A DNA stretch of 64,000 nt from Rufibacter radiotolerans (GCF_001078055.1 NZ_CP010777.1:1820408-1884407), one strand, 5' to 3'. Shown: positions 708 to 64,000, counted from the first letter of the stretch. A program made the numbers and translations. Notes: a model not told the origin generated them from the letters alone.

Positions 708-1577
708 TTAATTGGTTGGCCCGTTGTCCACTTTAGATTCCAGTACTGCCTGTAGCTGCTTTGGCAGCACAGACAACAGGTCATAGCCGGTGTTGGCTTC
801 AATCAGATCAATGTTGGTTCTATACGTGCCCCAGTCTGACCGCACCGTGTTGTTGTTGGGGGTATTGATAGCGATGACGCGGGTGGCAGTGGTGATGCGT
901 TCCAGGTCTTTGTCGCCGTCTGGCAGTACCACCAGAACCTTCCAGATTTGGGCGGGCACCGTTACGCGGCCATTGGCGATGGTGGTGGCTGGACCGTTAC
1001 TGCCGGTGCCACCGGTGCCATAGCTGCCCATAATCACATAGACTTCCTGGCCTGCGTTAACCAATTGCCGAGTGTACTCCTCTAGGTTAGACCAAAGCTC
1101 GCGGTTATGGGTGGGAGCCTGCGGCAGAATATTGGTCATGAGAAAGGTAGCCGAGTTGGCCTCTATGGTATTGGTGCGGTCCCCCGAGGGGATGTTGTGG
1201 CCCCGGTCAAAGCCAGTGCCGGTGTAGACCGAAGTAGTCACTTTGTACCAATCTGAAGGCAAGGCTGCATCTGCCCTGAAATCATCTTGCCGCGGGGCGT
1301 CCCCTAACCAGTCTTTGCTCACGTGCCAACTTACCCAATTGGCATTACCGCGGTCGCGGCTATAGGAAAGGGCGTATTCTTTCTTCACCATCAGGTAATT
1401 GTTGGACCCAGAGACCGAAGCCACGGCCTGACTGGGGTTTCCTAGCACCAAATGTTGGCTTACCGGCAATTGGGAGGTGGCGGGCGTTACCTGGATTTCC
1501 TTACAGCTAAAGATAAAAAGCGCGAGGCTTACCAGGGAGGCGTATTTTTTGAGGGAGGAAAGACTTCTTTTCGTCAT
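708..1577 (-). CDS. DNA/RNA non-specific endonuclease, lipoprotein-type export signal
   Basis: Secreted sugar-non-specific nuclease of the NUC (Serratia nuclease) family, 289 residues. Residues 1-24 form a lipoprotein signal with Cys25 (FIFSC), so it is probably anchored in the envelope. The family signature DRGH is at 124-127 with His127 as the predicted general base, followed by DRT and the metal-binding Asn region (MTNILPQ, about 147-152, then N158). Length fits the family. Likely role is degradation of extracellular or periplasmic nucleic acid for nutrition. A TAnnTTTG-like promoter lies at 1718-1725. It is divergent from the motor/cytoskeleton cluster that starts at 1935, and nothing ties it to that cluster functionally. 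Confidence 0.9.
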   Translation of the reverse strand: MTKRSLSSLKKYASLVSLALFIFSCKEIQVTPATSQLPVSQHLVLGNPSQAVASVSGSNNYLMVKKEYALSYSRDRGNANWVSWHVSKDWLGDAPRQDDFRADAALPSDWYKVTTSVYTGTGFDRGHNIPSGDRTNTIEANSATFLMTNILPQAPTHNRELWSNLEEYTRQLVNAGQEVYVIMGSYGTGGTGSNGPATTIANGRVTVPAQIWKVLVVLPDGDKDLERITTATRVIAINTPNNNTVRSDWGTYRTNIDLIEANTGYDLLSVLPKQLQAVLESKVDNGPTN

Positions 1578-1934: not shown

Positions 1935-3314
1935 ATGGATAAAACCAGGTGTACGCGCAGCAGTAAGGTTCTTTTGCTTTCATTGGCATTAGTCTTTACC
2001 GGATGCTACAAAAAGGAAACAAAACTAGAAGAATCAACCCCCCAGGTAACACAGGACCAGGGTAAACCGGAGCCTAAACCCAACACACCCGCGGCGAAAG
2101 CCCCGGTAGAGTCGGCCCCCGCCGCCACGGCCTCTACGGTAGACGTAAACCTCTACCTGGAGATCTCCAACGGCATGAAAGGGTTTATTCCGCCGCCTGC
2201 CCCAGACAAACAACCCACGGCTTTCCAAACCCGCCTGAACCAACTGATCTCTGAGATCCAGGATGGCCGCTACGTGAAGTCTAAACGCTATTATCTGGCC
2301 AAAGAAAACAACCAGGGCAAGCCAGTGCTGGACAGTGTCTCTTATACTACCTTAAAAAACACCATCTCCAGTGGTATAAAAGCCGATGTGCGGGGCACTC
2401 CGCTCCCGGACATGCTGGAAGCGGCCTTAGCCAAGTCTTTGCAGCGGAACGCGGTCAGCATAATAATTTCTGATTTTATCCACGGACCAGACCCCCGGAA
2501 TCCAGGCCAGTTCATTTCCCTGGACTCAGACATCAGGAGCAGCCTGAAAGCCGCCGAGCAGAAAAACCAGGTAGTGGCGGTGTTGGGTGCTACTTCGCCT
2601 TTTTACGGTACCTACCACCCAGCCGTGAAAAAACCAGCCGTGAGCCGCGTGCTGCAAGGGGAGGAGATTCCTTACTACATCTGGATTATAGGCAACCAGC
2701 AAGAAGTGCAGGTGGTCATGAACAAGATTCTCCGGAACCTGCCGGCCCAGCAGGCCTACTTCGGGTTTCAGTACAAAACGGTGCCCTATTCAGCGGTGTT
2801 AAAGGCTGCGGCTTTCAAACCCATGGGATTGGTGTACTGTACCAGCCGCACAGCCCAGGCCTGTACCTCGGTTAATTTAAGGCCCGAGCCCAAAGAGCCC
2901 GTGCAGTTTACCATTGGCTTGGATTTAAGCCAGTTACCAGCTTCAATGAAAGATGCCGGCTACCTGAAACAGCATTTAAAGCTGACCACCACTGGCGCGA
3001 AGGCTTCTCTTGGCACTGTAATTGCGGCTAATGAAGAAACCAGGGCCGTTCCTGAGTTAAGCCAATTTACCCATTTCGTGAAAGTAAATGTGCCGGCGTT
3101 GACAGCCTCCATTGGCGCCCTGACCCTGGCGCTTCCGCAGGTAAGCCCGGCCTGGGTTGGCAACTGGTCCACTGAAAATGACAACAATCCTGCGGCGGCC
3201 CCTAAGAAAACTTACCAGTTCTCCAAAATCATTCAAGGGGTGCAGGCCCTCTACAGAGACCAAAACCAAAATGTGCTAAGTGTAACTATGAAATTTAACA
3301 AAGAAAACAACTAA
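1935..3314 (+). CDS. vWA-like lipoprotein, first gene of the motor/cytoskeleton cluster
   Basis: Predicted lipoprotein of 459 residues. The signal peptide ends in the lipobox VFTGC with Cys24, followed by a Lys/Glu/Pro-rich linker to about residue 68. The next segment looks like a von Willebrand A fold: strand VDVNLYLEISNGMKGF (69-84) where the MIDAS DxSxS is degenerate (E76-x-S78-x-G80), a Thr at 155 and a strand ending in Asp180 (SIIISDF). The remainder (about 240-459) looks beta-rich and unassigned. The frame opens at a TTG at 1908, but the ATG at 1935 sits directly before the signal peptide and is preferred. The next gene starts 2 bases after its stop. vWA homology is my reading of motif shape only. 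Confidence 0.6.
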   Translation: MDKTRCTRSSKVLLLSLALVFTGCYKKETKLEESTPQVTQDQGKPEPKPNTPAAKAPVESAPAATASTVDVNLYLEISNGMKGFIPPPAPDKQPTAFQTRLNQLISEIQDGRYVKSKRYYLAKENNQGKPVLDSVSYTTLKNTISSGIKADVRGTPLPDMLEAALAKSLQRNAVSIIISDFIHGPDPRNPGQFISLDSDIRSSLKAAEQKNQVVAVLGATSPFYGTYHPAVKKPAVSRVLQGEEIPYYIWIIGNQQEVQVVMNKILRNLPAQQAYFGFQYKTVPYSAVLKAAAFKPMGLVYCTSRTAQACTSVNLRPEPKEPVQFTIGLDLSQLPASMKDAGYLKQHLKLTTTGAKASLGTVIAANEETRAVPELSQFTHFVKVNVPALTASIGALTLALPQVSPAWVGNWSTENDNNPAAAPKKTYQFSKIIQGVQALYRDQNQNVLSVTMKFNKENN

Positions 3315-3316
3315 GA

Positions 3317-3730
3317 ATGATACAGAACTTTTTCTCAGGATTGTATGAATTGTTCCTGGGCCGTCCGCTGCCTGCCAATTACACCAATGACTACCGCGAG
3401 GTAGTGTTCCCTAACACCGGGCTTACCTTATTCCTGATCACGTTGGGCATGGTGCTCTTATACTATTATGTTTTTAATCGCCTGATGAGCACCGGCTTTT
3501 ACAAAACCCAGCACTGGACCATTATGCTGGTACTTAATGCCGTCATTGCTTTTTTCATCCCGATCATGCAGGTGAACAGCAATGGCATAGAAACCCATTC
3601 GTATACCTACACCTTCGCCTTTGTGAATGCGGTATTGAGCGTGGTTCTGTTTTTTCTTTTTTCCCTCCTTTTCAAAAAAGGGTCGGTTCAAGCCTGGACT
3701 ACCCCTATGAAATGGCCTCACACTAAATAA
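3317..3730 (+). CDS. small membrane protein, three predicted TM helices
   Basis: 137 residues with no family I recognise. Hydrophobic segments at about 32-52 (TGLTLFLITLGMVLLYYYVF), 68-86 and 100-118 suggest three membrane helices in the inner membrane, with a short basic tail. It lies between the lipoprotein (2 bases upstream) and the tubulin-like gene (3 bases downstream), so the three are almost certainly co-translated from one message. The position suggests it is a membrane partner or anchor of the cluster; no function can be read from the sequence itself. Confidence 0.7.
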   Translation: MIQNFFSGLYELFLGRPLPANYTNDYREVVFPNTGLTLFLITLGMVLLYYYVFNRLMSTGFYKTQHWTIMLVLNAVIAFFIPIMQVNSNGIETHSYTYTFAFVNAVLSVVLFFLFSLLFKKGSVQAWTTPMKWPHTK

Positions 3731-3733
3731 CCT

Positions 3734-5185
3734 ATGGCAAAATTATTTGTATTCGGGATTGGGGGCACAGGCTCCCGGGTAATCCGCTCACTGGTCATGC
3801 TCATGGCCGCCGGCGTGAAAATCAAGAACTGTGATAAGATTGTCCCTATCATCATTGACCCCGACACCCAGAACGGGGATATGAACCGCACCGTTGAATT
3901 GCTGAAGACCTATAAGCACCTGCACTCCAAGCTGGGCCGCCGGGACGAAGGCTTCTTCCACACCGACATCAGTACCCTTTCCAGCATTGCCAATGACGGT
4001 AATGCCAAGATAAGAGACAGCTTTGTGTATGATTTTGGTGGTATTAACAAACCGTTCAAAGATCACGTGGGCTATAACCAACTGGACATTGATTCCCAGG
4101 CGCTGGTTGATCTGCTCTTTACCTCAGAGAACCTCAACAACAGTCTGGATGTAGGCTTTAGAGGCAGCCCGAACGTGGGGTCCGTGGTGCTCAATGAAAT
4201 CATTGACTCCCCCGAGATGCGTTTCTTCGCCTCTAACTTCCAGGCCGGGGACCGGATCTTCTTTGTAAGCTCCATCTTTGGCGGAACCGGCGCGGCTGGC
4301 TTCCCGCTGCTGCTGAAGAATTTCAAGGACGTGCATTCCACGCTTCCCAATGCGGCCAGCCTGAACAACGCCCTCACAGGCGCCATGGTGGTATTACCTT
4401 ATTTCTCTTTGGAGCAACCTGCTGCTGGCGTACAAACCGACTTTATTGACTCCAACGCCTTTACCACCAAGGCCAAAGACGCGCTTTCTTATTATCAGAA
4501 CCACCTGAACGGTTTGAACGCCACTTATTACATGGGTGACACGCCAGACAAGCCGCTGGAAAACAACCCAGGCCGCGCCAGCCAGAAAAACGATGCCCAT
4601 TTGGTGGAGTTGTTGAGCGCCCTGGCAATTGTGGACTTCATGGATTACTCAGACAATGAGTTGCAAGGAAATTCCCTTTTCCATGAGTATGGCTTGCGCG
4701 AAGACGTGGACCATATCCAGTTCTCGCATTTAGATAATGAGACCCGGGACCGGATTGCCAAGCAGTTGATCAAATTCCATTACTTTGAGCGGTACTACTC
4801 ACAGCATTTACCGGAAGACGCCCAGGCTGCTTACTCCAAAGGGGTGGACCTGCAAGGCGCCATCCGGAACGAGCCTATCTTCAAAGACCTGAATAAATTC
4901 CTTTCAAACCCGGAGTTTGGTTACCAGTCCTGGTTAAAAGAATTAGGACGGCAGGAACGGACCTTTGCGGCCTTGAACCTGAATGAGACCGACTTTAACC
5001 GCATGGTTTCTGACAAGCAGGTAGAGACCGGGTTCCTGAACAAGGGAATCCATCAGGGTTCGTTTGTAAAAGAACTCAACAGAGCTTCTGAGTCTATCTC
5101 TGACCGTGACGCGTTTGTGGCGACCATTAAAGCTTTTGAAGCCGCTACTACTAACCTGGTAGATGATAAACTGAAATATTCATAA
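3734..5185 (+). CDS. tubulin/FtsZ-like protein
   Basis: 483-residue soluble protein with the marks of a tubulin-type GTPase. The N-terminus opens with a beta strand and glycine loop (FVFGIGGTGSR, residues 5-15) like the start of FtsZ/tubulin and of the tubulin-like Tubulin_2 family. The tubulin signature G-box is at 183-189 (GGTGAAG) after strand FFVSSIF. An acidic loop after strand 2 (IIIDPDTQNGD) fits the expected nucleotide pocket. The C-terminal third is helical. It lacks an obvious FtsZ C-terminal tail. It follows the small membrane protein by 3 bases and precedes the actin-like gene by 161 bases. GTP binding and polymerisation are predicted from motifs, not shown. Confidence 0.7.
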   Translation: MAKLFVFGIGGTGSRVIRSLVMLMAAGVKIKNCDKIVPIIIDPDTQNGDMNRTVELLKTYKHLHSKLGRRDEGFFHTDISTLSSIANDGNAKIRDSFVYDFGGINKPFKDHVGYNQLDIDSQALVDLLFTSENLNNSLDVGFRGSPNVGSVVLNEIIDSPEMRFFASNFQAGDRIFFVSSIFGGTGAAGFPLLLKNFKDVHSTLPNAASLNNALTGAMVVLPYFSLEQPAAGVQTDFIDSNAFTTKAKDALSYYQNHLNGLNATYYMGDTPDKPLENNPGRASQKNDAHLVELLSALAIVDFMDYSDNELQGNSLFHEYGLREDVDHIQFSHLDNETRDRIAKQLIKFHYFERYYSQHLPEDAQAAYSKGVDLQGAIRNEPIFKDLNKFLSNPEFGYQSWLKELGRQERTFAALNLNETDFNRMVSDKQVETGFLNKGIHQGSFVKELNRASESISDRDAFVATIKAFEAATTNLVDDKLKYS

Positions 5186-5346
5186 CGGGTTAACCTCCCT
5201 TAGAGGGAAGAGAGGTAGGACGCCTTTTGATTAATAAAGGCTTCCCACTTTCACCGCTTTGGAAGATCAAATTACAAGAAAAGCCCCAGGGAGCAGATTC
5301 TGTTTTCAGTCTCTTTTCTATAAAACGCCTTAAAAACACGTAAAAA
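5186..5346. other. intra-cluster gap
   Basis: 161 bases between the tubulin-like and actin-like genes. It contains a short hairpin (TCCCT/AGGGA near 5206) and a degenerate GTTTT...AAAAAC copy of the intergenic palindrome family near 5300-5336. I see no clear promoter or U-tract terminator, so read-through from the upstream genes is plausible. Confidence 0.35.
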
Positions 5347-8300
5347 ATGCCTAAAGTACTTCGTCTTCATAAAACCGGCTCAAACGTAGAGGGCTGGGCA
5401 CAGACCAGCCAGATTACCAGCACCGAGATCAAAGACATGGTGGATGGCGCCGGTGGTAGGGCCCAGAAGATAAACGCTTCTATTCCTACGCCGTTTGCCC
5501 GAATGCACCTTTTTGAAACCGCTTTTGATTTTGTAAAGCATGGCGTAGGCGGCAATAACAATACCATTTACCACCAGTTTGTGACCCATTTCTGGGATTT
5601 GTGGGAGCTCTTGTACCACCACCAAAGCTATGCCCAGGGCGGAAACAAGATTGTGGTGCGCCGCTGGAATAAGCAGCAGCAACTGGCCAACATGCAGGCT
5701 AACCCCGGGACCCGTCTTTTGGGCAAAACCCTGGAGTTGTTCATGAATGACAACCGGTTCAGGGGTGTAGATGAACTGTTCCTTTTCTACCTGGAAACAG
5801 CCAATGCCCAGGGGCAAACCAGAATGCAACTGTTAGGCGGCACCTCGCCGCTGACTTTCCTGTTTGTGTCGCCGCATGTGCAGCCTTTGGACATTAACCG
5901 CACGCACAACGCCGGGGTGTATTTTGACAACCACTACGTGCCGTTGCAAGACCGGGAGCAGGATTTCAAGGAATACGTGCACAAACTGTTCATGTCCAAC
6001 CCGGCTTTTGTGCAGGCCTTCCCGGCCGTGTACAATACCCTGGATGAGCATCTTCTAAAGAGCATTAACATGTCTGGAGTGGTGGGGCAAAATGCCATTG
6101 CCTCAGACTATATTCCGTTGGTGGACCAGCAGCAAAACCCCGTACACGTAGGGCACCTGAACTTCCTGGTAAAGAAAAACCAGACGGCTGTCAACAGCAG
6201 TGACCTGTTCCTTAGACCTACGAACAGCCGATTTGCCGGCGACCGTCCTATTGTGCTCAAGCCAGACCTACGGTTGGCCCCGCACGTGAAGTACGTAAAT
6301 AACCTGGCTTGGCCGGCCTCTACCCAGGTGGGTTATTCAGATGCCAAAACAATTCCGGCGCGCTCCCTGCCAGGGGTAGGGTTCAACTACCCGTACCTGA
6401 CCGTCAATGACCTGTTGCAGGAAACCATTGTGCAGGTTCCTTATGAGGTGAACACTGAACGCTTTTTCTCCGGCACGGTTCTTTTCCAGCCGGGCGTGAC
6501 CGATAAGACGTTCAATTACCTGCTGCCCATCACCAGCCTGTATTTTGAATATTTTACGCCTGAGGATCTGGCTAATCACCTTACCTTCCATATTGACGTG
6601 AACCACGTGCGGGTAACGCTAAACGTGCCCACCGAAAGCGGAACCGTGGTGTATGAGCGCAGCTACTATGACAACCCGTTAAACTCCAAAGACGCCAACG
6701 GACAGGTAATCCCAGAGAAAGGCCATATCCTGAAATCCAAAGTTGGTGTGGGCGTGTTCCCGTTCTATAAATTTGTAGACGCGCCCACTTACAATGACTT
6801 CTACAAAGTGATGCTGGTTGACGAGGACATTGATCCTTTATTGGTCAATAAAAACCACACCCTTTCTTTCTACGCTGGCGGAAACCAACTAGGCGAAGGC
6901 GGGGGTATTATCTCCGCTACCGGGACACGCCGGACCAAGAAGAGCAACAGCAGCGCGGGCAGTACCTATTATGAAATCAGAGGAACCCATTTTGACTTCG
7001 CTGAGTTCACCCACCAGGGCGTGGATGTGGTTGGTAAAGCCTTGATCGTTCCTAGATTCCGGGAGGTGCAGCAGGGTATCCACAACTTTACCTTCGCCAT
7101 TGATTTCGGGACGTCTAACACCCACATTGCGTTTACCTCTGGCGCCAACCAACCGCCCAAGGAGTTCTCCATCACGGCCAATGACCTGCAGCTAGTCATG
7201 CTGAATAAACCGTCAGATGATCCTGCACTCACAGATTACCAGCGGTTCCATAAGCGGGGCTTCGGGCGTCTATTTGCGGTAGAAACCTTGCTGAAGCGGG
7301 AATTCATTCCGTTGATCATTGGGTCTGGTGGGTCTCTGTACTCATTCCCAACCAGAACGGCTACCTGCGAGTCTATTGACTTTGAGAACCAGATCCCTAA
7401 CCTGTTCGGGAACATCAACATCGGGTTTTCCATCAACACCGAAGGCACGCACCAGGACCAGTACAAGCAAACGTACCACACCGACCTTAAGTGGAGCGAG
7501 ACGCTTACCAATACCGGCAAGCGCCGCATTGAGGCCTTCTTCACAGAGATCATGTACCTCATCAAAAACAAAGTGGTGCTTAACAACGGAAACGTGGCCA
7601 ATACCAAAGTGGTATGGTTTGCCCCTTTGAGCTTTGATGACTACAGCCGCAACATGTTCCAGAACGTGTGGGACACAGTGTACCAGAACGTCTTCAAAAA
7701 TGGCCGCAACACGGCCTGCATCACCGAATCGGTGGCGCCGTTCTACTTTTTATCCAGAACCGGTGCCGTGGTGCCTAGCCAGGATGAGAACCTGATTAAC
7801 GTAGACATTGGCGGTGGTACCACCGATATCTTGCTGTTCACCAACCGCAAGCCTTCGCACAGCTCGTCGTTCCGGTTTGCCGGTAATGACCTGTGGGGTG
7901 ATGGTTTCGCTACGGTAAAAACCAGTAAGGACAATGGCTTGCTGCGCTACGGCGTGGACCATGTGCTGCAGATTCCGCTTACCGATGAAGGCAAGGAATA
8001 CAAGAAGTTCCTGGAGACGTCTCTGGACAACCCTGACTTCAACTCCGCGGATATCACCAGCTTACTGTTCAGCTATGACAAAGAATTGCACTTCAGTTCG
8101 CAACTGTTGCAGGCGCGCCAACTGAGGCTGATGTTCTATCTGCACTTCGGAGCCATGATGTACCACCTGGCGCAACTGACCAAACAGTTAGACACCAAAG
8201 TGCCGCGTTACATTTGCTTCAGTGGTCAGGGTAGTTTGTACATCAAGCTGCTAAGTGCGGGCAACAACCTGTCTAACGTTGAGCGCTACGCCAAAACCAT

Positions 8301-8802
8301 CTTCCAGAAAGTGACAGGCCAGGAGGCACCAGGTAACTTCAAGCTGGTGCTGGTAGACAACCCGAAACAGGTGACAGCCAATGGGGGAGCCCTGGCGTTG
8401 GACGGAGCCAATCTTTCTGACCTTACTGATATTCCGATCATGCGCCCTACCGGGTCAGCCAACAGCGCAGATGCCTTGCTTCCGGTGAATAAAAGCCAGA
8501 TCTCCTCTACCATTCGGCAGGAAGTGCTGGAGAACGTGATGGACTGTTTGCAGTTGCTTTTAGATGATGCAGATGTGGCGCCGCTTATGCGCTCCATGGG
8601 TGTGGAGGTAGACCCGCACTGGGTACTGAACTTCATGCGCAACAACATCCAGGACAGCTACACCATGGTGCTGGAGGAAACCCTGCGTGGGCTTTCAGAC
8701 AGGGAGCTGCTTCCGGAGACCATGTTCTTCATGCCATTGAAGCAGTCTCTGTACCTGTTGTCTAAAGAGCTATACCACCAGCAAGTGGGGGCCATTGTCT
8801 AA
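5347..8802 (+). CDS. giant Hsp70/actin-like ATPase with large N-terminal region
   Basis: 1151-residue cytoplasmic protein. Residues 1 to about 575 match no domain I can name. From about 580 an actin/Hsp70-type ATPase follows: phosphate-1 loop DFGTSNT at 586-592, phosphate-2 loop DIGGGTTD at 820-827, and an adenosine-side SGQGS loop at 959-963 followed by ANGGALAL. About 100 helical residues close the protein. The order and spacing of the loops match the actin/Hsp70 superfamily, although inserts are long. There is no signal peptide or TM helix. Codon use resembles its neighbours. A protein with this opening (MPKVLRLHKTGSNVEGW) recalls conserved unnamed Bacteroidota proteins, from memory. It probably couples ATP binding to the membrane parts of the cluster; this is inference. 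Confidence 0.75.
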   Translation: MPKVLRLHKTGSNVEGWAQTSQITSTEIKDMVDGAGGRAQKINASIPTPFARMHLFETAFDFVKHGVGGNNNTIYHQFVTHFWDLWELLYHHQSYAQGGNKIVVRRWNKQQQLANMQANPGTRLLGKTLELFMNDNRFRGVDELFLFYLETANAQGQTRMQLLGGTSPLTFLFVSPHVQPLDINRTHNAGVYFDNHYVPLQDREQDFKEYVHKLFMSNPAFVQAFPAVYNTLDEHLLKSINMSGVVGQNAIASDYIPLVDQQQNPVHVGHLNFLVKKNQTAVNSSDLFLRPTNSRFAGDRPIVLKPDLRLAPHVKYVNNLAWPASTQVGYSDAKTIPARSLPGVGFNYPYLTVNDLLQETIVQVPYEVNTERFFSGTVLFQPGVTDKTFNYLLPITSLYFEYFTPEDLANHLTFHIDVNHVRVTLNVPTESGTVVYERSYYDNPLNSKDANGQVIPEKGHILKSKVGVGVFPFYKFVDAPTYNDFYKVMLVDEDIDPLLVNKNHTLSFYAGGNQLGEGGGIISATGTRRTKKSNSSAGSTYYEIRGTHFDFAEFTHQGVDVVGKALIVPRFREVQQGIHNFTFAIDFGTSNTHIAFTSGANQPPKEFSITANDLQLVMLNKPSDDPALTDYQRFHKRGFGRLFAVETLLKREFIPLIIGSGGSLYSFPTRTATCESIDFENQIPNLFGNINIGFSINTEGTHQDQYKQTYHTDLKWSETLTNTGKRRIEAFFTEIMYLIKNKVVLNNGNVANTKVVWFAPLSFDDYSRNMFQNVWDTVYQNVFKNGRNTACITESVAPFYFLSRTGAVVPSQDENLINVDIGGGTTDILLFTNRKPSHSSSFRFAGNDLWGDGFATVKTSKDNGLLRYGVDHVLQIPLTDEGKEYKKFLETSLDNPDFNSADITSLLFSYDKELHFSSQLLQARQLRLMFYLHFGAMMYHLAQLTKQLDTKVPRYICFSGQGSLYIKLLSAGNNLSNVERYAKTIFQKVTGQEAPGNFKLVLVDNPKQVTANGGALALDGANLSDLTDIPIMRPTGSANSADALLPVNKSQISSTIRQEVLENVMDCLQLLLDDADVAPLMRSMGVEVDPHWVLNFMRNNIQDSYTMVLEETLRGLSDRELLPETMFFMPLKQSLYLLSKELYHQQVGAIV

Positions 8803-8812
8803 TTAAATCCTG

Positions 8813-8851
8813 AGTCCGTGCTTCTGCTGTAAAACAGAGGCACGGACTTTT
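8813..8851 (+). terminator. hairpin with T-tract inside the cluster
   Basis: AGTCCGTGC and its complement GCACGGACT form a long stem (14 paired positions with one wobble) followed by TTTT, just after the stop of the actin-like gene. It has the form of an intrinsic terminator, so it may attenuate transcription into the downstream Gln/Pro-rich gene and the motor genes, setting subunit ratios. Confidence 0.6.
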
Positions 8852-8884
8852 ACTATGAAAACATTATAAAAGAAGAAGTACCTT

Positions 8885-9916
8885 ATGGTAACTATAGCAA
8901 TCATTTTAGGGGTAGTAGCGCTGGCCTTTGCCGCCTTTGCCCTTTATAGAATAGGCTCTCTCTCCAACCGGATAAGCCGCCTGAATGAAAAGATCAACAA
9001 TCTGGACCAAAAGCTGCAAGAAGCCAAAGGCCAGTTAGCCAGATCTGGCAGAAACCAGCCACAACAGGTTTCGGCTAAGGTTCCCCAGGACAAACCAACC
9101 CGCCAAAGCCAGACGGCACCGCAGGAGCCACGGCAAAAGCAACAAGGCCAGCAACCCGGGAGAGGTCAGCAGCCCCAGGAGGGAAGAGTTAATACCCCGC
9201 AGCAAGAGCCCCAGGGCCAGGCGCAACAAGGCCGTCAGCCACGTCAGCCGCAGCAGGGACAAGCGGCTCAACCCGCACAGCAACCTCGTCAACCGCAGCA
9301 ACAGCAACAACAGCAGCCTCAACAACCAAATCAACCAAGGCAGAATCAGCCGCGGCAAGGAGCGGTGAACGCGCCTGAACAAGCTGGACAACAAGCACCA
9401 CAACAGCAACAACAGAAGAAAAGAAGAGAAGGTCAACCCAGAAACCCTATGAACCCAACAGAAGGACAACCAGCCCAAAATCAACCCCGGCCAAACCAAT
9501 CGGCCTCCCTGGGTTCAGACCTGGTAGGCAGTGATCTCTTGTCTGAGCTGACCAGCCAGCAAGCCCCGGAACAAGTTCAACCGCAGGAGCCACAGAGCAA
9601 AACGGCTTTCGCCATTATCCCGGAAGACGGTGTAATTAAGCAGCACCAACTGCAGCAGCGCCCAGATTCTGACAGTTACCTGGAAATTGACAATCCCGCC
9701 GGAAGCAACAGCAACGCTACCGCTTACCGGTTTAACCTTTCGGGCAACCAGGCCTTCGTGATCTCACAAGGAATGGACCGTCTGGAGAATGCTTTTTCCT
9801 TTGAGAAACCCACCAACCGCCAGGTAAGCCAGATTGTGCAGCAGGGCGATGGGCTGTTGACCAAAGTAGGCAACGGCTGGAAAATAGAACGGAAGGCCCG
9901 GATTGATTTCCGCTAA
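8885..9916 (+). CDS. membrane-anchored Gln/Pro-rich protein with C-terminal globular domain
   Basis: 343 residues. Residues 2-22 form one hydrophobic helix (IAIILGVVALAFAAFAL), followed by a coiled-coil stretch (about 28-55), then about 170 residues of low-complexity Gln/Pro/Arg/Gly sequence with polyglutamine runs, and a compact C-terminal part (about 238-343) of mixed strands and helices that resembles no family I know. The layout is a tethered domain on a flexible arm, with the N-out/C-in orientation uncertain. It lies between the actin-like gene (82 bases) and the MotA-like gene (201 bases). The repeat-rich middle is likely to vary in length between strains. Function unknown. Confidence 0.7.
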   Translation: MVTIAIILGVVALAFAAFALYRIGSLSNRISRLNEKINNLDQKLQEAKGQLARSGRNQPQQVSAKVPQDKPTRQSQTAPQEPRQKQQGQQPGRGQQPQEGRVNTPQQEPQGQAQQGRQPRQPQQGQAAQPAQQPRQPQQQQQQQPQQPNQPRQNQPRQGAVNAPEQAGQQAPQQQQQKKRREGQPRNPMNPTEGQPAQNQPRPNQSASLGSDLVGSDLLSELTSQQAPEQVQPQEPQSKTAFAIIPEDGVIKQHQLQQRPDSDSYLEIDNPAGSNSNATAYRFNLSGNQAFVISQGMDRLENAFSFEKPTNRQVSQIVQQGDGLLTKVGNGWKIERKARIDFR

Positions 9917-9934
9917 TTTGCATTGATTTCAAGG

Positions 9935-9970
9935 AAAGCAGGTCGGGTGTAATGCCAGGCCTGCTTTTGT
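9935..9970 (+). terminator. hairpin after the Gln/Pro-rich gene
   Basis: AAAGCAGG (9935-9942) and CCTGCTTT (9960-9967) pair perfectly over 8 bases with a T-rich tail, about 18 bases after the stop codon. It fits a weak intrinsic terminator and would separate the motor gene pair into its own transcription unit or lower read-through to it. Confidence 0.45.
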
Positions 9971-10084
9971 TGCGCCTGACCGTTTTTGGGCCGTTTTTAG
10001 AAAAACAGGCTCAAAACAGAAATAAGGTCAATTACCTTTTAAAATGATAAATCATTGCCCCTGTTTTAATTAACCTAGGGCGCT

Positions 10085-10092
10085 TATCTTTA
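10085..10092 (+). promoter_or_regulatory. possible -7 element for the motor gene pair
   Basis: TATCTTTA matches seven of eight positions of TAnnTTTG and lies 17 bases after a TTTT that could serve as a -33 element. The motor gene starts at 10118. The match is imperfect and the call is tentative. Confidence 0.3.
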
Positions 10093-10117
10093 TCCTTCAT
10101 TTAACACACGCACTACC

Positions 10118-11848
10118 ATGTTAGGTATTTTCTTTTTAGAGGCTTTTCTGATTCTGATAATCCTGGGTTACCAGCTGTTTATCTACCGGGCCAATAAAAG
10201 AAAGATTGCAGCCGTGGAAGACCTCTTCCCGGAGGAGGGGCAACTGGCTATTCAGGAGCACATGCTGGAGACCGCCAAGTCTTCTGGCCGGAACCCCATG
10301 CCGCCTGAGCAAGTGTGGGCACACCTAATCAAAGCTCAGCCCTTTCGGGAATATTCCCCTACCAACCCCGTCTTGAAACGCATTCTAGCCGTGGGCGATG
10401 ACCAGTTGCAGATTGAGGTAAAAGGTGGCACCGTACCGCTTTACGCCATCAGCAAAGAGCGTTTTCAGCAGTTACTGGCCAAAGGCAACATCTTTCTGGA
10501 GGAGGGCGGTTCTGAAGCCTGGGACGAACCAAGGGTGCTGTCTGGGGAGATGATGACCATTGACCTGATTGAGGCCCGTAAACCGTCGCCCACGTTTCAG
10601 AAGATCCTGCACAATACCAATGAGTACCTGCGCCTGAACAAAGGAGCCGCCGCCGATTTTGAGATCCTCAAAGACGTGTCTGAGCGGTACGCCGATGCCC
10701 AGGACGATGAGGTGCAGTCCACCATTGCCACCCCGCTGTACGTGGGTTTGCTGGGTACCTTTTCGGGGGTGATCATTGGCTTGTCCAGCCTTATCTGGTC
10801 TGGGAGCCAGGCCGAGGGTTCTGCCTTTATCACCGATGAGAACATCCCGTCGTTCCTGTTTGGGGTCTTGATTGCCATGACCGGCAGTTTTCTGGGGCTA
10901 CTGCTGACCTTGATGGGCAACAACGCCCTCAAGAATGCCCGTAGCACCCGCGACCGGCTCAAGAACGAATATTACACCTTCCTGCAAACCCACCTGCTGC
11001 CTAAGCTGAACTCAGATATGGCCGCCAGCCTGGGCAACCTCAAATCGGTGCTGGATTCTTTTAACCGCGATTTCCTGGACAAGATCCTGGGCTTTCGGCC
11101 AATTGTAGAGACGCTCACCGAAAACATCAGCATTCAGAAAGACTTTATCCAGAAACTGGACCAGATTGGCTTCACGCAGATGGCCAACGCCAATCTGCAG
11201 GTCTTTGACAAGATCAAGGAAAGCGAGCGCCTGTTCATGAACTTCCTGCAGTACCAGGAGGCCTTGAATGAATCTGTGCGGCAAGGCGGGGAACTTACGC
11301 AAAACATCTCACAGGTGCTGGGTCGGCTTACGTCACTGCAGGAAGGCTTTGACAAGGTGCCAGGCTACCTGCAACAGCATGACGAGAACATTCAACGGCA
11401 AATCCATTTCTTTGACCGCCACGAACAGGACCTGGACAGCATCGCGCAGCGCACCGAGCAGTATTTTGACAAAGCCGCCCTTCGGCTTACCGATCTGATG
11501 GAAGCCCGCCTGCAGCACCAGGAACGCGATGCCCAGAATGCCTATGAGAAGTGGCAGGAACATTTCAGGCGGCTCAACGAGGATAACATTTACCAGCGCA
11601 TACTGGACTATATGCGGCCCTTTGAGAACCTGCAACAGCAGCAGGAACGGCTGGGCACCCAACAGCAAGTACTGGCTGGGCAGATCAACCAGACCAATGA
11701 CCGGCTGCTCCAAAAAATAGAGGAAGACGCGCAGATCCAACAGCAACTGCTCAAGCAACTGGCCACCCTGAACGCTAATCTGGAGAAGAGCATGGAGCCA
11801 GGACCTATCAAGGCGGCTATGGGTAAGATTTTCGGGACCAAACGGTAA
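10118..11848 (+). CDS. MotA/TolQ/ExbB-like proton-channel subunit with long coiled-coil tail (ZorA-like)
   Basis: 576-residue inner-membrane protein. One N-terminal helix (about 4-23) is followed by a cytoplasmic segment of about 180 residues, then two closely spaced helices at about 205-228 (TPLYVGLLGTFSGVIIGL) and 242-266 (IPSFLFGVLIAMTGSFLGLLL) with the Gly/Thr/Ala pattern of MotA/TolQ/ExbB stator subunits. Residues about 290-570 are heptad-like, Gln/Glu/Leu-rich coiled coil. A three-helix stator with a long cytoplasmic tail is the architecture of ZorA from Zorya defence systems. It is followed 13 bases later by its MotB-like partner. Expected to form a pentamer around a dimer of that partner and to conduct ions; inferred from the family. 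Confidence 0.75.
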   Translation: MLGIFFLEAFLILIILGYQLFIYRANKRKIAAVEDLFPEEGQLAIQEHMLETAKSSGRNPMPPEQVWAHLIKAQPFREYSPTNPVLKRILAVGDDQLQIEVKGGTVPLYAISKERFQQLLAKGNIFLEEGGSEAWDEPRVLSGEMMTIDLIEARKPSPTFQKILHNTNEYLRLNKGAAADFEILKDVSERYADAQDDEVQSTIATPLYVGLLGTFSGVIIGLSSLIWSGSQAEGSAFITDENIPSFLFGVLIAMTGSFLGLLLTLMGNNALKNARSTRDRLKNEYYTFLQTHLLPKLNSDMAASLGNLKSVLDSFNRDFLDKILGFRPIVETLTENISIQKDFIQKLDQIGFTQMANANLQVFDKIKESERLFMNFLQYQEALNESVRQGGELTQNISQVLGRLTSLQEGFDKVPGYLQQHDENIQRQIHFFDRHEQDLDSIAQRTEQYFDKAALRLTDLMEARLQHQERDAQNAYEKWQEHFRRLNEDNIYQRILDYMRPFENLQQQQERLGTQQQVLAGQINQTNDRLLQKIEEDAQIQQQLLKQLATLNANLEKSMEPGPIKAAMGKIFGTKR

Positions 11849-11861
11849 GCGCCCCAGTACC

Positions 11862-12524
11862 ATGAACAAAGAAAACAGAGATTTCTTCTGGCCCAGTTAT
11901 GTAGACCTCATGACCGTGCTCTTTTTGGTAATGCTGGTCCTTTTTATCCTGAGCTTTAAAATGTTCCGGGACAAGGCAGCCGAGAACGAGCGGAATATTG
12001 CCCAACTGCAGGTAGAAGTACAAGAGAAACGGAAGCTGGACGAGATTAAAGCCGCTCTTTCACGTTTGGAAGGTAAGTACTTTACTTACAATGAGAAGTA
12101 TAAGCGACATGAGTTATTGGTAGACGTGATTTTCCCCCAGAGTAGCGCCGAGATTCCGGCCCGGGCATTGCAGCCTTTGCGGCAGGCAGGCATTGAGCTG
12201 AGCAAGGTGGTGAACTCCATTAAAGACCAGGAAGTAAAGTATCTTATTGTAATAGATGGCCGGGCCGCCAGTTTCCCCAGAGGAGATTCCCGCAACATCA
12301 CCCAGCGGGAATACGCCTTAGAGCTTAGCTACAAAAGGGCCTTGGCCTTACTACAGTTCTGGCGCAATGCTGGTATCAAATTCCCAAAAAACCGCATTGA
12401 GTTGATTGCCTCCGGCAGCGGGTTTGAAGGCGCCGGCCGAACTGGAGATACCCGCGACCGGCGCTTCGTGATTCAAATTCTGCCAAAAGTGGGGGCCCTG
12501 GAAACCCGGCGGATTACCAGGTAG
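11862..12524 (+). CDS. MotB/OmpA-like stator partner (ZorB-like)
   Basis: 220 residues. A short cytoplasmic N-terminus leads into a single TM helix (about 13-32) that contains Asp15 in the motif SYVDLMTVLF, matching the ion-carrying Asp of MotB and ZorB. A coiled-coil linker (40-70) is followed by an OmpA-like peptidoglycan-binding domain (about 80-212) with IDGRA, LSYKRAL and a closing RRFVIQI strand, the usual NxxLSxxRA and RR-V landmarks. It would anchor the motor in the cell wall. The ATG is 13 bases after the MotA-like stop, so translation is probably coupled. A strong bidirectional terminator follows at 12578-12625. Confidence 0.8.
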   Translation: MNKENRDFFWPSYVDLMTVLFLVMLVLFILSFKMFRDKAAENERNIAQLQVEVQEKRKLDEIKAALSRLEGKYFTYNEKYKRHELLVDVIFPQSSAEIPARALQPLRQAGIELSKVVNSIKDQEVKYLIVIDGRAASFPRGDSRNITQREYALELSYKRALALLQFWRNAGIKFPKNRIELIASGSGFEGAGRTGDTRDRRFVIQILPKVGALETRRITR

Positions 12525-15793: not shown

Positions 15794-17464
15794 ATGAGTA
15801 CTCCCCTAACAGCGTCTTTGCTTGGTCTGGCCCTTACAGCGGCAGTTTGCTCCTCCGGACTGGCTCAGCAACGTGATTACCAAAGCTATGATCAGCTTAC
15901 GGCCCGCCTGAAGCATTTGACCAATAAGTACAGCAAGTTAAGCTCGCTCACCACCATTGGGAAAACCGCCACGGGCAAGGAAGTGTGGCTACTGACCCTG
16001 GGCAGGGACAATGCGGTCAACAAACCGGCCATAGTTATTGCGGCAGGGGTCGAAGGGACCCAGTTGGCCACCACAGAGCTTTCCATGCAGATGACTGAGC
16101 AGATGCTGGAGGCCGCCATGATCCAGGACTCGGTGCGGGAATTGTTGCAGAAAAAGACCTTTTACATATTCCCCAACCTTACCCCAGACGCCTCAGAACA
16201 ATACCATGAAGCATTGCGGTGGGAAAGGGCAGCCAATGCTCAACCCACCGATGACGACCGGGATGGCCGCATGTTTGAAGATGCCTTTGAAGACCTGAAC
16301 AAAGACGGCCAGATCACCATGATGCGGGTAAAATCCCCGAATGGGCTTTACCGTCCATCCTTGGAAGATCCTCGCGTGATGGTAAAAGCGGATACCACCA
16401 AAGGTGAAAAGGGAGGCTACCTGCTGCTCACCGAAGGCAATGACAATGACAAAGATGGTAAGTGGAATGAAGATGCCGAAGGGGGCGTGGTTTTTAACAG
16501 GAACTTCTCCTATGATTTCCCCTATTTCCAGGTAGGCGCGGGCGAACACCCCATTTCTGAGCGCGAGACCAAGGCCTTTGCCGATTTCATGTTTGAGGCG
16601 AAGAACGTATATGCCGTCTTTGTCTTCGGGCCGGCCAACACCTTGTCGTTTTCCACCCCTTTAAGCGCCGCCAAAACGGCCGCTGAAAACCTTACCGGTC
16701 CCTTGCCCAAAGAGGCGTCGCTCCAGGAAAAAGTTTCAGGCCTCTACAACCAAACCACCCAACTGCAAAATCCGCCCAGGGTAGCGCCTAGCCCAGGAGA
16801 TGTGGTGCAGTGGGCGTATTTTCATTATGGCCGGTTTAGTTACAGCACGCCCGGCTGGTGGGTGCCCAAGGTAGCGGCCTCCTTAGATTCTGCTGGCGCT
16901 GAAGCCTCTTTTTCCTCAGAAGAAAACCAGGAAGACCTTAATTTTTTACGGTGGGCCAGGGCCAATGATATTCCCGGGGTTTTTGTGAATTGGCAGCCTA
17001 TGGCGCACCCAGATTTCCCAGGCGAATTGGTAGAAGTAGGAGGGCTGGCGCCTTACGTGAAGCAAACGCCTCCTTTGCGGTTTTTGGCCCCGGTGGCTGA
17101 AAAGCATTTCCAGTTTTTCTCGGCGTATGCCAAATGGATGCCTACACTTAAAATTGAGAAAGTGCAGACGGAGAAAGTGGCCGGCGGACATACCCGCATC
17201 ACGGCCACTGTTTCAAATGTTGGAGCTCTTCCCACCCATTCAGAGATAGGAGACCAGTCTAAGTGGGTACAGAAAATAAGGGCATCTTTGAAGTTACAGG
17301 AAGGCCATACGCTCATCTCCGGTAACCTGGTGCAGCCTACCCATGCGCTGGCCCCTGGGCAAAAGGCGCAGTTTAGCTGGGTAGTAGAAGGCAAAGGCTA
17401 CATAACCCTTACCGTAGGAAGTCCGGCTGTAGGGCAACAAACCAAAGAGGTTTACTTATACTAA
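15794..17464 (+). CDS. M14 carboxypeptidase-like protein, zinc ligands lost
   Basis: 556 residues with a signal peptide (to about residue 25). The overall M14 fold is recognisable: GKTATGKEVWLLTLG, KKTFYIFPNLTPDA, two Asp-rich EF-hand-like loops (DDDRDGRMFED and DNDKDGKWNED), FNRNFSYDFP and the late WQPMAHPDFPGELVEVGG. However the HxxE zinc motif is replaced by AAGVEGTQ (84-90) and the later His ligand region reads VFGPANTLS. It is therefore probably a pseudo-peptidase, binding rather than cutting. The frame opens at 15704 inside the previous gene; the ATG at 15794 directly precedes the signal peptide. Second of three genes in an apparent operon. Confidence 0.8.
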   Translation: MSTPLTASLLGLALTAAVCSSGLAQQRDYQSYDQLTARLKHLTNKYSKLSSLTTIGKTATGKEVWLLTLGRDNAVNKPAIVIAAGVEGTQLATTELSMQMTEQMLEAAMIQDSVRELLQKKTFYIFPNLTPDASEQYHEALRWERAANAQPTDDDRDGRMFEDAFEDLNKDGQITMMRVKSPNGLYRPSLEDPRVMVKADTTKGEKGGYLLLTEGNDNDKDGKWNEDAEGGVVFNRNFSYDFPYFQVGAGEHPISERETKAFADFMFEAKNVYAVFVFGPANTLSFSTPLSAAKTAAENLTGPLPKEASLQEKVSGLYNQTTQLQNPPRVAPSPGDVVQWAYFHYGRFSYSTPGWWVPKVAASLDSAGAEASFSSEENQEDLNFLRWARANDIPGVFVNWQPMAHPDFPGELVEVGGLAPYVKQTPPLRFLAPVAEKHFQFFSAYAKWMPTLKIEKVQTEKVAGGHTRITATVSNVGALPTHSEIGDQSKWVQKIRASLKLQEGHTLISGNLVQPTHALAPGQKAQFSWVVEGKGYITLTVGSPAVGQQTKEVYLY

Positions 17465-17473
17465 AGCAAACCC

Positions 17474-19222
17474 ATGAACAGAAATTTCCTTTTTGCTTCA
17501 TTGTTGCTTTTAGGTCTCCAGGTGCCTGGGGTTCCGGAGGCGACTGCGCAAGCGAAACTTCCCTTAATTTATACTTCCGGCACTATGAAGGCCCCCAAAG
17601 TGGCAGTGGACTTGAAACAGCGCCTTGACTACGCGAGCCTAACAGCCATCTGCCAACAATTGGCAAAGGCCTACCCAGGTCTGGTGAAGGTAGAAACCAT
17701 TGGTGATTCCTATGAAGGCCGCCGTATCTGGGCCATGACCATTTCTGATTTCAGGACTGGCGACCCAGACAGAAAACCAGCCTATTACCTGGACGGAAAC
17801 ATTGCTTTACAAGATGAGCAGGCCTCTGAGATGGCCTTGTATACAGCCTGGTACCTGCTGGAGAACTTCAAAGAAAACCCTTTCATACAGGAGCTTCTGC
17901 TGCAGAAAACCTTCTATATTCTGCCCGCCGTGTATCCAGATGCCTGGGAGAAATCCTTTTCTGTTGAGGCCTCCGGCAAACCGGCAAAAAGTAGCTTAGG
18001 GCTGTACGATGATGACGGAGACGGCTTGGTGGACGAGGACCAGCCCCAGGACCTGAACCAGGATGGCTTCATCACCTACATGCGCCGCAAATCTGCCAAC
18101 GGCAAGTATGTGGCAGACCCAAAGAACCCACTCAAACTTGTCCGGGTTAAACCGGGGCAGAAAGGGGAGTTTGAGTTATTGGGCTTAGAAGGCCTGGACA
18201 ATGACGGAGACGGAAAAGTAAACGAAGACCCGGCTGGTTACCAGGATTCCAACAGCGATTGGGCCTGGAACTGGCAACCAGATTATGTGCAACGTAGCGC
18301 CTCCCGGTTTCCGTTTGCCTTACCAGAGAACCGTATCCTGAAAGATTTCATCTTAAAGCACCCCAACATTGCCGGGGCTCAGAATTACTGTAATACGCTT
18401 TTAACACCCACTAACCACACCGTTCCGGTGGCAGGCAGTGTCTACCAGCAGGAAGAAAACCAGGTAAAGCAGGATCTAGAGAAAATAGCCGAAACGCTGT
18501 TGCCAGGATTTACTTACACCTCCTCGGGCCTTGACTGGTACAACGCCTACGGGGGGCAATTGGAATGGCTGCGGGCAGCACGGGGCATCTTCACGTTCAG
18601 AAATGAATTGATGTCCCAGAACCTTAAATTCAACCAGGAATTTGCCTCCGTTTCCAACCAGGACCCTGAGCAGAAAGCTTTGGTGACCCATCCGCTTTTC
18701 CAGGATGCCTTTGTAGAATGGACTCCCTTTAACCATCCCACGTACGGGGCCATTGAGATTGGCGGCTATAAGAAAGGCTATAGCTATGGTAGTTCAGGCA
18801 TTCAGTTGGAAGAAGACGCCCATCGCAACCTTGTGTCTACCTTGTTTCAGGCGTACCATACGCCCCAGATTGAGATAAAAGACGTACTAACCCAAACCTT
18901 ACCTAACGGTTTAACAGAGGTATCTGCCACGGTGGTGAATACCCGGCTTATCCCCACGCATTCTACCCATGATTTACTGAATAAGATTGAGCGCCCAGAT
19001 TACATTACCTTAAAAGATTCTACGGTTGTAGCCGGGAGCTTTCAGATAGTAGGAAAGGCGACCTCGTTTCATGAACAGACTTATATCCCAGCCAAACTGG
19101 AAGTGCCAACTATCCCCGGAAGAGGTGCCGTAAAAGTGAGATGGGTGGTGAAGGGCATAAAGCCAAACCTGGAGATTGAGGTAGACAGTCGCAAAGGCGG
19201 AGTTGTCTGCCAGCGTTTCTAG
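17474..19222 (+). CDS. second M14 carboxypeptidase-like protein, zinc ligands replaced
   Basis: 582 residues, secreted (signal to about residue 26). Same architecture as the gene 9 bases upstream: GDSYEGRRIWAM, the DGNI strand, EF-hand-like loops (DDDGDGLVDED; DNDGDGKVNED) and PFNHPTYGAIEIGG near the end. At the zinc site the family pattern NIHGNE reads NIALQD, so His becomes Ala111 and Glu becomes Asp114; the third His is Cys305 (NYCNTLL). Glu377 (FRNEL), at the place of the catalytic base, is kept. Likely inactive as a metallopeptidase. The two paralogues seem to have arisen by old duplication, as they now differ widely. Confidence 0.8.
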   Translation: MNRNFLFASLLLLGLQVPGVPEATAQAKLPLIYTSGTMKAPKVAVDLKQRLDYASLTAICQQLAKAYPGLVKVETIGDSYEGRRIWAMTISDFRTGDPDRKPAYYLDGNIALQDEQASEMALYTAWYLLENFKENPFIQELLLQKTFYILPAVYPDAWEKSFSVEASGKPAKSSLGLYDDDGDGLVDEDQPQDLNQDGFITYMRRKSANGKYVADPKNPLKLVRVKPGQKGEFELLGLEGLDNDGDGKVNEDPAGYQDSNSDWAWNWQPDYVQRSASRFPFALPENRILKDFILKHPNIAGAQNYCNTLLTPTNHTVPVAGSVYQQEENQVKQDLEKIAETLLPGFTYTSSGLDWYNAYGGQLEWLRAARGIFTFRNELMSQNLKFNQEFASVSNQDPEQKALVTHPLFQDAFVEWTPFNHPTYGAIEIGGYKKGYSYGSSGIQLEEDAHRNLVSTLFQAYHTPQIEIKDVLTQTLPNGLTEVSATVVNTRLIPTHSTHDLLNKIERPDYITLKDSTVVAGSFQIVGKATSFHEQTYIPAKLEVPTIPGRGAVKVRWVVKGIKPNLEIEVDSRKGGVVCQRF

Positions 19223-63022: not shown

Positions 63023-63424
63023 TTATTCAGTTGCAATAGTGGCAATAGAAATCTTCGCCTTTAAGTCGCTGGCAATCCCTCCTACCTTCACCAGGTACTC
63101 TACGGGAACGGTTTTGTCTACATTCAGGACAACAACCCCCTGCCCTTCTTCGGTTCCGCCCAAGGCAGCGGACAGGTCGGAGCTAAGTGTTTCCAGAGTA
63201 GTAGGTCTATCGTTTACGTAATACTGTAGGTCTTTGGTAATGGTCACGCTTACCTTCTGCATGGTAATGCTGCCCTTAGAACTGGAAGGCAGGTTCACCG
63301 GCAAAGCAGTGGGTGTTACGAAATTGGAGGTGAGCATGAAGAAAATCAGGAGCAGGAAGATGATGTCCGTCATAGAAGACATGCTGAACTCCGCGCTGAT
63401 TCGGTTTTTGGAACGTAAATTCAT
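63023..63424 (-). CDS. exbD: ExbD/TolR family biopolymer transporter
   Basis: 133 residues. One TM helix (about 20-38) with the conserved Asp in SMTDIIFLLLIFFML, which carries protons, then a periplasmic ExbD/TolR fold. Its ATG overlaps the last base of the exbB stop (TAATG), so the two are translated together. Confidence 0.93.
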   Translation of the reverse strand: MNLRSKNRISAEFSMSSMTDIIFLLLIFFMLTSNFVTPTALPVNLPSSSKGSITMQKVSVTITKDLQYYVNDRPTTLETLSSDLSAALGGTEEGQGVVVLNVDKTVPVEYLVKVGGIASDLKAKISIATIATE

Positions 63425-64000
63425 TAGGCTTGCGGCTCCTGTAATAAATCAATGAACTCAATGGAGCTGTACTCCATATCATGCACAATGCTGTCAATTT
63501 TGGCTACCAGGAAGTTATATCCTACGTAGGCTGGCAAACCTATGATCAATCCGGCCGCCGTAGTTACCATGGCTTCATAGATACCTCCAGAAAGCAATTT
63601 AGGGCTGATAGACCCTTCGGCTTGGGCAATAGCGATAAAGGCACCGATCATACCCGTTACCGTTCCCAGGAAGCCCAGCATGGGGGCAGCCCCTGCCACG
63701 GTGGCCAGACCAGAAAGGCCTTTTTCCAGACGGGCAATCTCAATCTTTCCTACGTTTTCAATGGAAGCCTCAATGTTTTTCAAAGGGTGACCAATGCGGG
63801 AAATTCCTTTTTCCAACATGCGGGAAATGGGAGAATTGGTTTGGGCACATAACATGCGGGCGCCTTGTACGTCACCGGCAACCACCAGGCTTTTTAAGCG
63901 GGCATTAAAACCGGCCGGGTTCTGGGCGGCTTTCTTAATGGTAAGGTAGCGCTCCACAAAAATGTAGATGGCCATAATGGAAAGGGCCGCCAGAGGGAAC
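63424..64000 (-). CDS. exbB: ExbB/TolQ/MotA family proton channel subunit, N-terminus outside the window
   Basis: At least 192 residues are visible and the frame stays open to the right edge; the upstream codons read FPLAALSI, so the true start lies beyond 64000. A first TM helix near the edge, two later TM helices (GLATVAGAAPMLGFLGTVTGMIGAFIAI; VTTAAGLIIGLPAYVGYNFL) and the short C-terminus are typical of ExbB. It makes the proton-driven motor with ExbD and TonB. Confidence 0.92.
   Translation of the reverse strand, partial: FPLAALSIMAIYIFVERYLTIKKAAQNPAGFNARLKSLVVAGDVQGARMLCAQTNSPISRMLEKGISRIGHPLKNIEASIENVGKIEIARLEKGLSGLATVAGAAPMLGFLGTVTGMIGAFIAIAQAEGSISPKLLSGGIYEAMVTTAAGLIIGLPAYVGYNFLVAKIDSIVHDMEYSSIEFIDLLQEPQA

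Follow-up and report, generated by a model that had tools for sequence, protein, structure and literature searches.

A 64,000-nucleotide stretch of Rufibacter radiotolerans (NZ_CP010777.1:1820408-1884407; family Hymenobacteraceae), hereafter the window, carries at positions 1935-12524 a cluster of seven genes (g1 to g7) that encodes a tubulin-like and an actin-like protein together with a putative ion-driven membrane motor. All seven open reading frames (ORFs) were found consecutively on the plus strand, as an initial annotation had described them. The intergenic gaps are 2 bp between g1 and g2 and 3 bp between g2 and g3, followed by 161, 82 and 201 bp, and 13 bp between g6 and g7. Because the spacing is uneven (up to 201 bp), more than one transcript is possible for the seven genes in R. 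radiotolerans. The genes were assigned as follows; compared loci and genomes are denoted by the prefixes L and G.

1935-3314 (+): g1, lipoprotein with a vWA-like domain and a degenerate metal ion-dependent adhesion site (MIDAS); sub-threshold DUF58/vWA match, conserved C24, M81 and D180
3317-3730 (+): g2, small protein with three hydrophobic (transmembrane, TM) segments; hydrophobicity and conserved place in relatives
3734-5185 (+): g3, tubulin/FtsZ-fold GTPase-like protein of 483 amino acids, Tubulin_2 (FtsZ-like) superfamily; Pfam, AlphaFold2 model and fold match
5347-8802 (+): g4, protein of 1151 amino acids, residues ~578-1027 with an actin/FtsA/MreB/Hsp70 fold; Pfam, profile against PDB and model
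8885-9916 (+): g5, N-terminal TM anchor, Gln/Pro-rich linker and conserved C-terminal domain; composition and relatives
10118-11848 (+): g6, TolQ/ExbB/ZorA-like motor subunit with three TM segments and a C-terminal tail of ~300 residues; profile against PDB and conserved residues
11862-12524 (+): g7, ZorB/MotB-like subunit, one TM segment with D15 as the candidate ion-carrying residue, and an OmpA-like domain at the C-terminus; PADLOC and profile against PDB

The g3 product showed both the tubulin signature GGTGAAG expected of it and a predicted tubulin fold. Its Pfam matches to Tubulin (5e-5) and Tubulin_2 (4e-4) were below the cut-off, the Tubulin_2 score being 20.3 bits against a required 27 bits. 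A relative on a cyanobacterial plasmid (L127) exceeded the Tubulin_2 cut-off (2e-10, 40.7 bits), which ties the g3 family to FtsZ-like proteins. The AlphaFold2 model of g3 (predicted template modeling score, 0.85) aligned with FtsZ at Z 16.2 over 221 residues (4.2 Å). The nucleotide loops T1 (GGTG) and T4 (FGGTGAAG) were present, and residues G10-G13 and F182-G186 were invariant in the 18 homologs aligned. A DF motif, D301-F302, was mostly kept and the second acid (position 304) was not, making this stretch a candidate T7 loop by sequence only. The genome encodes a separate FtsZ of its own, and an hhalign comparison of the g3 profile with this FtsZ aligned the T4 loop alone, with a weak score. 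In searches of viral contigs, five contigs of uncertain viral nature matched g3 and none matched g4.

The length, motifs and predicted fold of g4 all agreed with the earlier description of a 1151-residue protein with actin/Hsp70 phosphate loops. The Pfam match to FtsA (4e-4) was below the cut-off, and the profile comparison against PDB found MreB at 2.5e-6. The structural model was good mainly in the C-terminal half, where residues 578-1027 aligned with FtsA, MreB, MamK and Hsp70 at Z 14-16 (15.9 for FtsA/MreB); confidence was low for residues 1-577, for which the alignment was shallow. The phosphate loops DFGTSNT and DIGGGTTD and the adenosine motif G-x-G-S were recognized, and D586, G588, D820, G822, G823, T825, D827 and G960 were invariant in 20 homologs. 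SrfABC was considered for g4 because SrfB is a giant Hsp70-like protein; this candidate was rejected, as no Pfam match to SrfB was obtained at E ≤ 1.

The motor pair was supported unequally by its two subunits. The g7 product matched ZorB (PADLOC, 4.3e-10; profile against the ZorB structure 8VVN, 9.7e-17) and, just below the Pfam cut-off, OmpA (2e-5). It has one hydrophobic segment, in which the membrane Asp D15 was invariant in 14 homologs, in agreement with its description as a MotB/OmpA-like protein with an ion-carrying Asp. For g6, the profile comparison against PDB gave weak matches to TolQ (0.014) and ZorA (0.045) that covered TM2-TM3; g6 itself had no PADLOC ZorA match and did not reach the Pfam MotA_ExbB cut-off. 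Distant g6 relatives matched PADLOC ZorA, partly through the coiled coil, and one g6 relative (L118) exceeded the MotA_ExbB cut-off (27.5 versus 22.9 bits). Residues T214, S257 and T264 of g6 were invariant in 14 homologs, and T214 and S257 aligned with T145 and T178 of TolQ, which we take to be ring residues of the stator family. The protein has three hydrophobic segments and a C-terminal tail of about 300 residues, which is probably a coiled coil. An hhalign comparison of the g6 profile with the ExbB/TolQ-type protein of the same genome aligned a short stretch alone, with a weak score. Altogether, a TolQ/ZorAB-type membrane pair is strongly supported for g6-g7 by profiles and conserved residues. 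The term ZorAB-like that had been proposed for the motor fits g7 well and g6 moderately; the three segments and ring residues expected of a MotA/TolQ-like g6 were found, and its stator reading comes from these residues and from profiles that are weak for g6 itself.

The three remaining proteins had been described as a lipoprotein, a small three-TM protein and a membrane-anchored Gln/Pro-rich protein, and these features were all recovered. The vWA match of g1 was sub-threshold (Pfam DUF58/vWA, E 0.008), and the MIDAS position reads EISNGM instead of DxSxS, with ExSGSM in relatives; the lipobox Cys C24 was invariant in 15 sequences, as were M81 and D180. The g2 product has three hydrophobic segments, and its gene keeps its place between g1 and g3 in relatives. 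The g5 product has one N-terminal hydrophobic segment followed by a stretch of 48% Gln+Pro and is probably periplasmic, because several of its relatives start with a signal-peptide-like stretch.

Next, we examined the conservation of the cluster. The g3 gene was present in 122 of 150 Hymenobacteraceae genomes and, at the level of the phylum, in 13 of 395. Wherever a Hymenobacteraceae locus was read from end to end, the seven genes kept the same order, with ~30-90% identity and different flanks, a recurrence far beyond chance; L074 ends at a contig edge, and g5 of some loci was recovered with a family profile only. Two loci, L075 (g3 and g4) and L096 (g3), showed genes split into two frames, as decaying copies or sequencing errors. 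The flanking genes differed in nearly every Pontibacter and were partly shared within Rufibacter, where an empty site was found in one genome (G048; L136, ~10902-11255): there, 353 bp separate the two genes between which other Rufibacter carry the block. Between Rufibacter and Pontibacter, g3 was 83-90% identical and FtsZ 72-78%, and g1, g2, g4, g6 and g7 leaned the same way as g3; in genome G001 the pattern was reversed (g3, 64%; most of FtsZ, 85%). Horizontal exchange of the entire block between the two genera is the likeliest explanation for these pairwise identities. The kept order despite differing neighbors, the empty site and the identity pattern thus indicate that the seven genes are one module. 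Presence was patchy in Pontibacter, and extra divergent copies were found in G058, G051 and G791. A conserved, exchangeable module in which a tubulin fold adjoins an actin fold is strongly supported; the co-conservation in Hymenobacteraceae and the predicted folds of g3 and g4 came out as the initial annotation had anticipated.

Outside Hymenobacteraceae, the constant part was g1-g5, with g3 and g4 adjoining in almost every case, and g1-g4 also occurred on cyanobacterial plasmids (L127, L129), mostly annotated as hypothetical. Some distant loci had the motor pair and others that keep g1-g5 lacked it, so the seven genes are not an indivisible set. When motorless genomes were tested with a g6 profile, no homolog turned up at other positions, the same profile having also missed the diverged L100 motor. 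On the g3 tree, motor presence and absence required at least seven changes, with long branches that make the deeper placements unsure; this distribution is consistent with a motor that was ancestral in the main Bacteroidota branch and was repeatedly lost. The conserved core is g1-g5, to which the motor is an addition that was lost on several occasions. Some more distant g3-g4 relatives had other neighbors instead of the motor, namely, OmpA-type or TerD-type genes in L098, L099 and L105 and a DnaK-like gene in L101 and L106. A distant member of the phylum (L100) carried all the parts in another order, with g7 first and g6 last, and its motor genes gave an OmpA match and a MotA_ExbB match that fell just short of the cut-off. 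A WG-repeat protein followed the core in the motorless loci L092 (16605-18017) and L108 (17074-18489), and similar-looking ORFs were seen in L094, L114 and L097.

A surplus of protease matches among the flanking genes led to the recognition of an exported-enzyme pattern. Outside Hymenobacteraceae, 11 of 12 motor-bearing loci encoded a protease or nuclease lipoprotein nearby, versus 3 of 11 motorless ones (L100 and L109, which differ in order or end, were left out); in the motor-bearing loci its gene usually follows g7 directly and in the same orientation. The difference (Fisher p 0.003) is descriptive only, as shared ancestry is ignored and the categories were drawn after the data had been seen. 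This link between exported proteases or nucleases and motor-bearing loci is new here. The genes concerned, and two further lipoprotein genes, are listed below.

L076:3457-4212, L107:1141-2226 and L115:1853-2911: trypsin-like lipoproteins
L119:1793-3232: trypsin + NucA nuclease lipoprotein, next to g7
L111:3034-3603, L118:2370-2984 and L113: retropepsin-like lipoproteins, with a fragment in L096
L116:2116-2781: SNase; in L095, SNase on the opposite strand
L103: NucA, two genes away
L092:15897-16469: secreted lipoprotein right after the last core gene
708-1577 (-) of the window: lipoprotein with a NucA-type DNA/RNA endonuclease (Endonuclease_NS, 6e-48), oriented divergently to g1, doubtful accessory

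Several of these lipoproteins start with a CSGCSRSG-like leader, and trypsin, retropepsin-like, SNase and NucA domains are interchangeable among them. The NucA lipoprotein of the window is one of only two in the genome and is related to the nuclease half of the L119 protein; other Rufibacter lacked it upstream of g1, and its role as an accessory of the cluster is doubtful. Among the other neighbors, a type I methyltransferase was found in the distant flanks. The second, diverged copy of a Pontibacter-group genome (L076) is flanked at 1-2018 and 16814-18869 by TerY-like vWA, PP2C and, by eye, McrBC-like genes. A canonical MotA/TolQ/ExbB gene at the far end of the window (63424-63975, minus strand) is unrelated to the cluster.

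We tentatively favor the reading that the seven genes encode one envelope-spanning machine, which most likely serves in conflict or surveillance at the cell envelope, and give it somewhat less than an even chance. Its center would be the cytoplasmic NTPase pair of g3 and g4, FtsZ/FtsA-like by fold prediction and near-universal adjacency. Judging from topology, g1 (lipoprotein), g2 (membrane protein) and g5 (anchored or secreted) would link the machine to membrane and periplasm. The profile matches and the invariant ring residues suggest that g6 and g7 form a 5:2 TolQ/ZorAB-type ion motor, in which g6 would provide the ring and the long cytoplasmic tail, and g7 would carry the ion on D15 and reach the cell wall. 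By analogy with Zorya, damage or injection at the wall could cause g7 to engage peptidoglycan, so that ions flowing through the motor drive its rotation, and the tail of g6 could then alter how the g3-g4 pair assembles or is positioned at that site. The same analogy suggests that the secreted protease or nuclease lipoprotein encoded nearby in many relatives may carry out the response there. The motor may thus signal to, or be steered by, the NTPase pair, as had been suggested. A bolder proposal, held with more reserve, is that a wall-anchored rotary motor working on or gated by a tubulin-like/actin-like filament pair, with exchangeable secreted protease or nuclease partners, represents a new envelope-acting class of anti-phage or anti-competitor systems.

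The conflict role is favored because of the block exchange, the patchiness, the extra divergent copies, the restriction-type genes near two distant copies and the variable exported nucleases and proteases. Several observations weigh against it. Among the family genomes listed, none from the Hymenobacter group lacked the block, an unusual pattern for a defense system. The 109 Pontibacter flanking ORFs gave PADLOC matches to 20 families with one protein each, many of them generic, and did not look like a defense island; the 119 distant flanking ORFs gave mostly single, generic matches and no clear defense island. This absence of defense islands and the very high frequency in Hymenobacter weaken the conflict role. 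In addition, the Hymenobacteraceae loci have no protease or nuclease in the slot after g7, the motor has been dispensable in evolution, and a GHTD stretch in the g7 of L100 is not kept in other g7 proteins, making peptidoglycan binding by g7 conjectural.

Two rival functions are serious. Membrane remodeling or morphogenesis, which we consider rather unlikely, would have an FtsZ-FtsA-like filament of g3-g4 bend or organize the envelope, as in vesicles or surface structures, and the motor exert a Tol-Pal-like pull on the wall and outer membrane. The adjoining tubulin and actin folds, as in FtsZ-FtsA, the alignment of the motor with TolQ and the very common occurrence of the block in the Hymenobacter group are all in line with it, and such a role was already proposed for FtsZ-like-1/vWA/OmpA operons (PMC2875224). 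However, the horizontal exchange, the empty site and the patchiness in Pontibacter speak against a basic morphogenetic role, and secreted nuclease or protease partners would not be expected. Envelope stress sensing or quality control seems more unlikely still. Here, the motor and the vWA lipoprotein would sense damage to the wall or outer membrane, the NTPase pair would act as a switch, and secreted HtrA-like or retropepsin-like proteases would clear damaged proteins. Trypsin_2 and retropepsin-like lipoproteins do adjoin the motor in distant loci, and TerD and TerY/PP2C genes, which belong to stress-linked families, lie beside some relatives; the NucA and SNase nucleases found at or next to this position fit poorly, however, as do the Hymenobacteraceae clusters without such a protease alongside. 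That g6-g7 is a separate operon merely beside g1-g5 is highly improbable and already largely refuted: the 201-bp gap ahead of g6 in the window and the several motorless relatives would agree with it, but the motor follows g5 or g4 at gaps of a few bases in the distant loci L095, L103 and L111, is retained inside the rearranged L100 cluster and shares the common leaning of all the genes in the Rufibacter-Pontibacter comparison.

If the seven proteins form one complex, a rotary envelope motor would be coupled to bacterial cytoskeletal NTPases. Such a complex would also provide a testable function for FtsZ-like (Tubulin_2) proteins, uncharacterized since 2010, and could add a new architecture to Zorya-like envelope defense. 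Deletion tests are feasible, since cultivable Rufibacter, Pontibacter and Hymenobacter commonly carry the block.

Finally, the cluster was compared with known systems. To our knowledge, no machine described so far has tubulin-fold, actin-fold and ion-driven stator proteins encoded together in a single gene cluster, and a full-text literature search of open-access papers found none on this seven-gene set. The cluster resembles Zorya, whose structures include the ZorB entry 8VVN (PMC11890865), in that g7 best matches ZorB with a conserved membrane Asp and g6 has a long C-terminal tail as in ZorA. In contrast to Zorya, the cytoplasmic partners here are tubulin- and actin-fold proteins. Membership was rejected because the effector genes are missing, no PADLOC match to ZorC, ZorD or ZorE being found in the seven genes or four adjacent genes. 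The three-TM A subunit with T214 and S257 at the TolQ positions and the B subunit with a TM Asp and an OmpA-like domain are shared with TolQR-Pal, ExbBD and MotAB, from which the tail of g6 and the operon context differ. With FtsZ-FtsA, the cluster shares tubulin-fold and actin-fold NTPases encoded side by side, but the sequences are very remote and g4 is nearly three times as large as FtsA. In 2020, Kaur et al. (PMC7159879) described conflict systems that are built on DO-GTPase/GAP1 and include tubulin and vWA, as well as NucA-trypsin systems. The cluster is like the DO-GTPase/GAP1-N2 systems in having tubulin and vWA in one neighborhood, and the L119 lipoprotein resembles the NucA-trypsin core; membership was rejected, since neither a TRAFAC DO-GTPase nor GAP1 was matched by Pfam among the seven.

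The initial annotation knew of no named system with this set, which holds for the full seven-protein set in the papers searched but not for its FtsZ-like-1/vWA/OmpA part, described in 2010 by Makarova and Koonin (PMC2875224). The main text of that paper presents FtsZ-like-1 operons with vWA, GTPase, kinase and OmpA proteins as a predicted membrane-remodeling system. Shared features are a divergent tubulin with T1 and T4 loops and vWA (g1), OmpA-domain (g7) and membrane-protein neighbors, the g1 and g7 Pfam matches being sub-threshold. In contrast, the Pfam scan of the seven genes detected neither a P-loop GTPase nor a kinase, g3 is under the Tubulin_2 cut-off and lacks the coiled-coil extension that the paper reports for most FtsZl1 proteins, and its main text names neither an actin-fold partner nor a MotA/TolQ-type motor subunit. 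These FtsZ-like-1/vWA/OmpA operons, not Zorya, are the closest described kind, and a giant g4-type protein may be among the families that the paper leaves unnamed.
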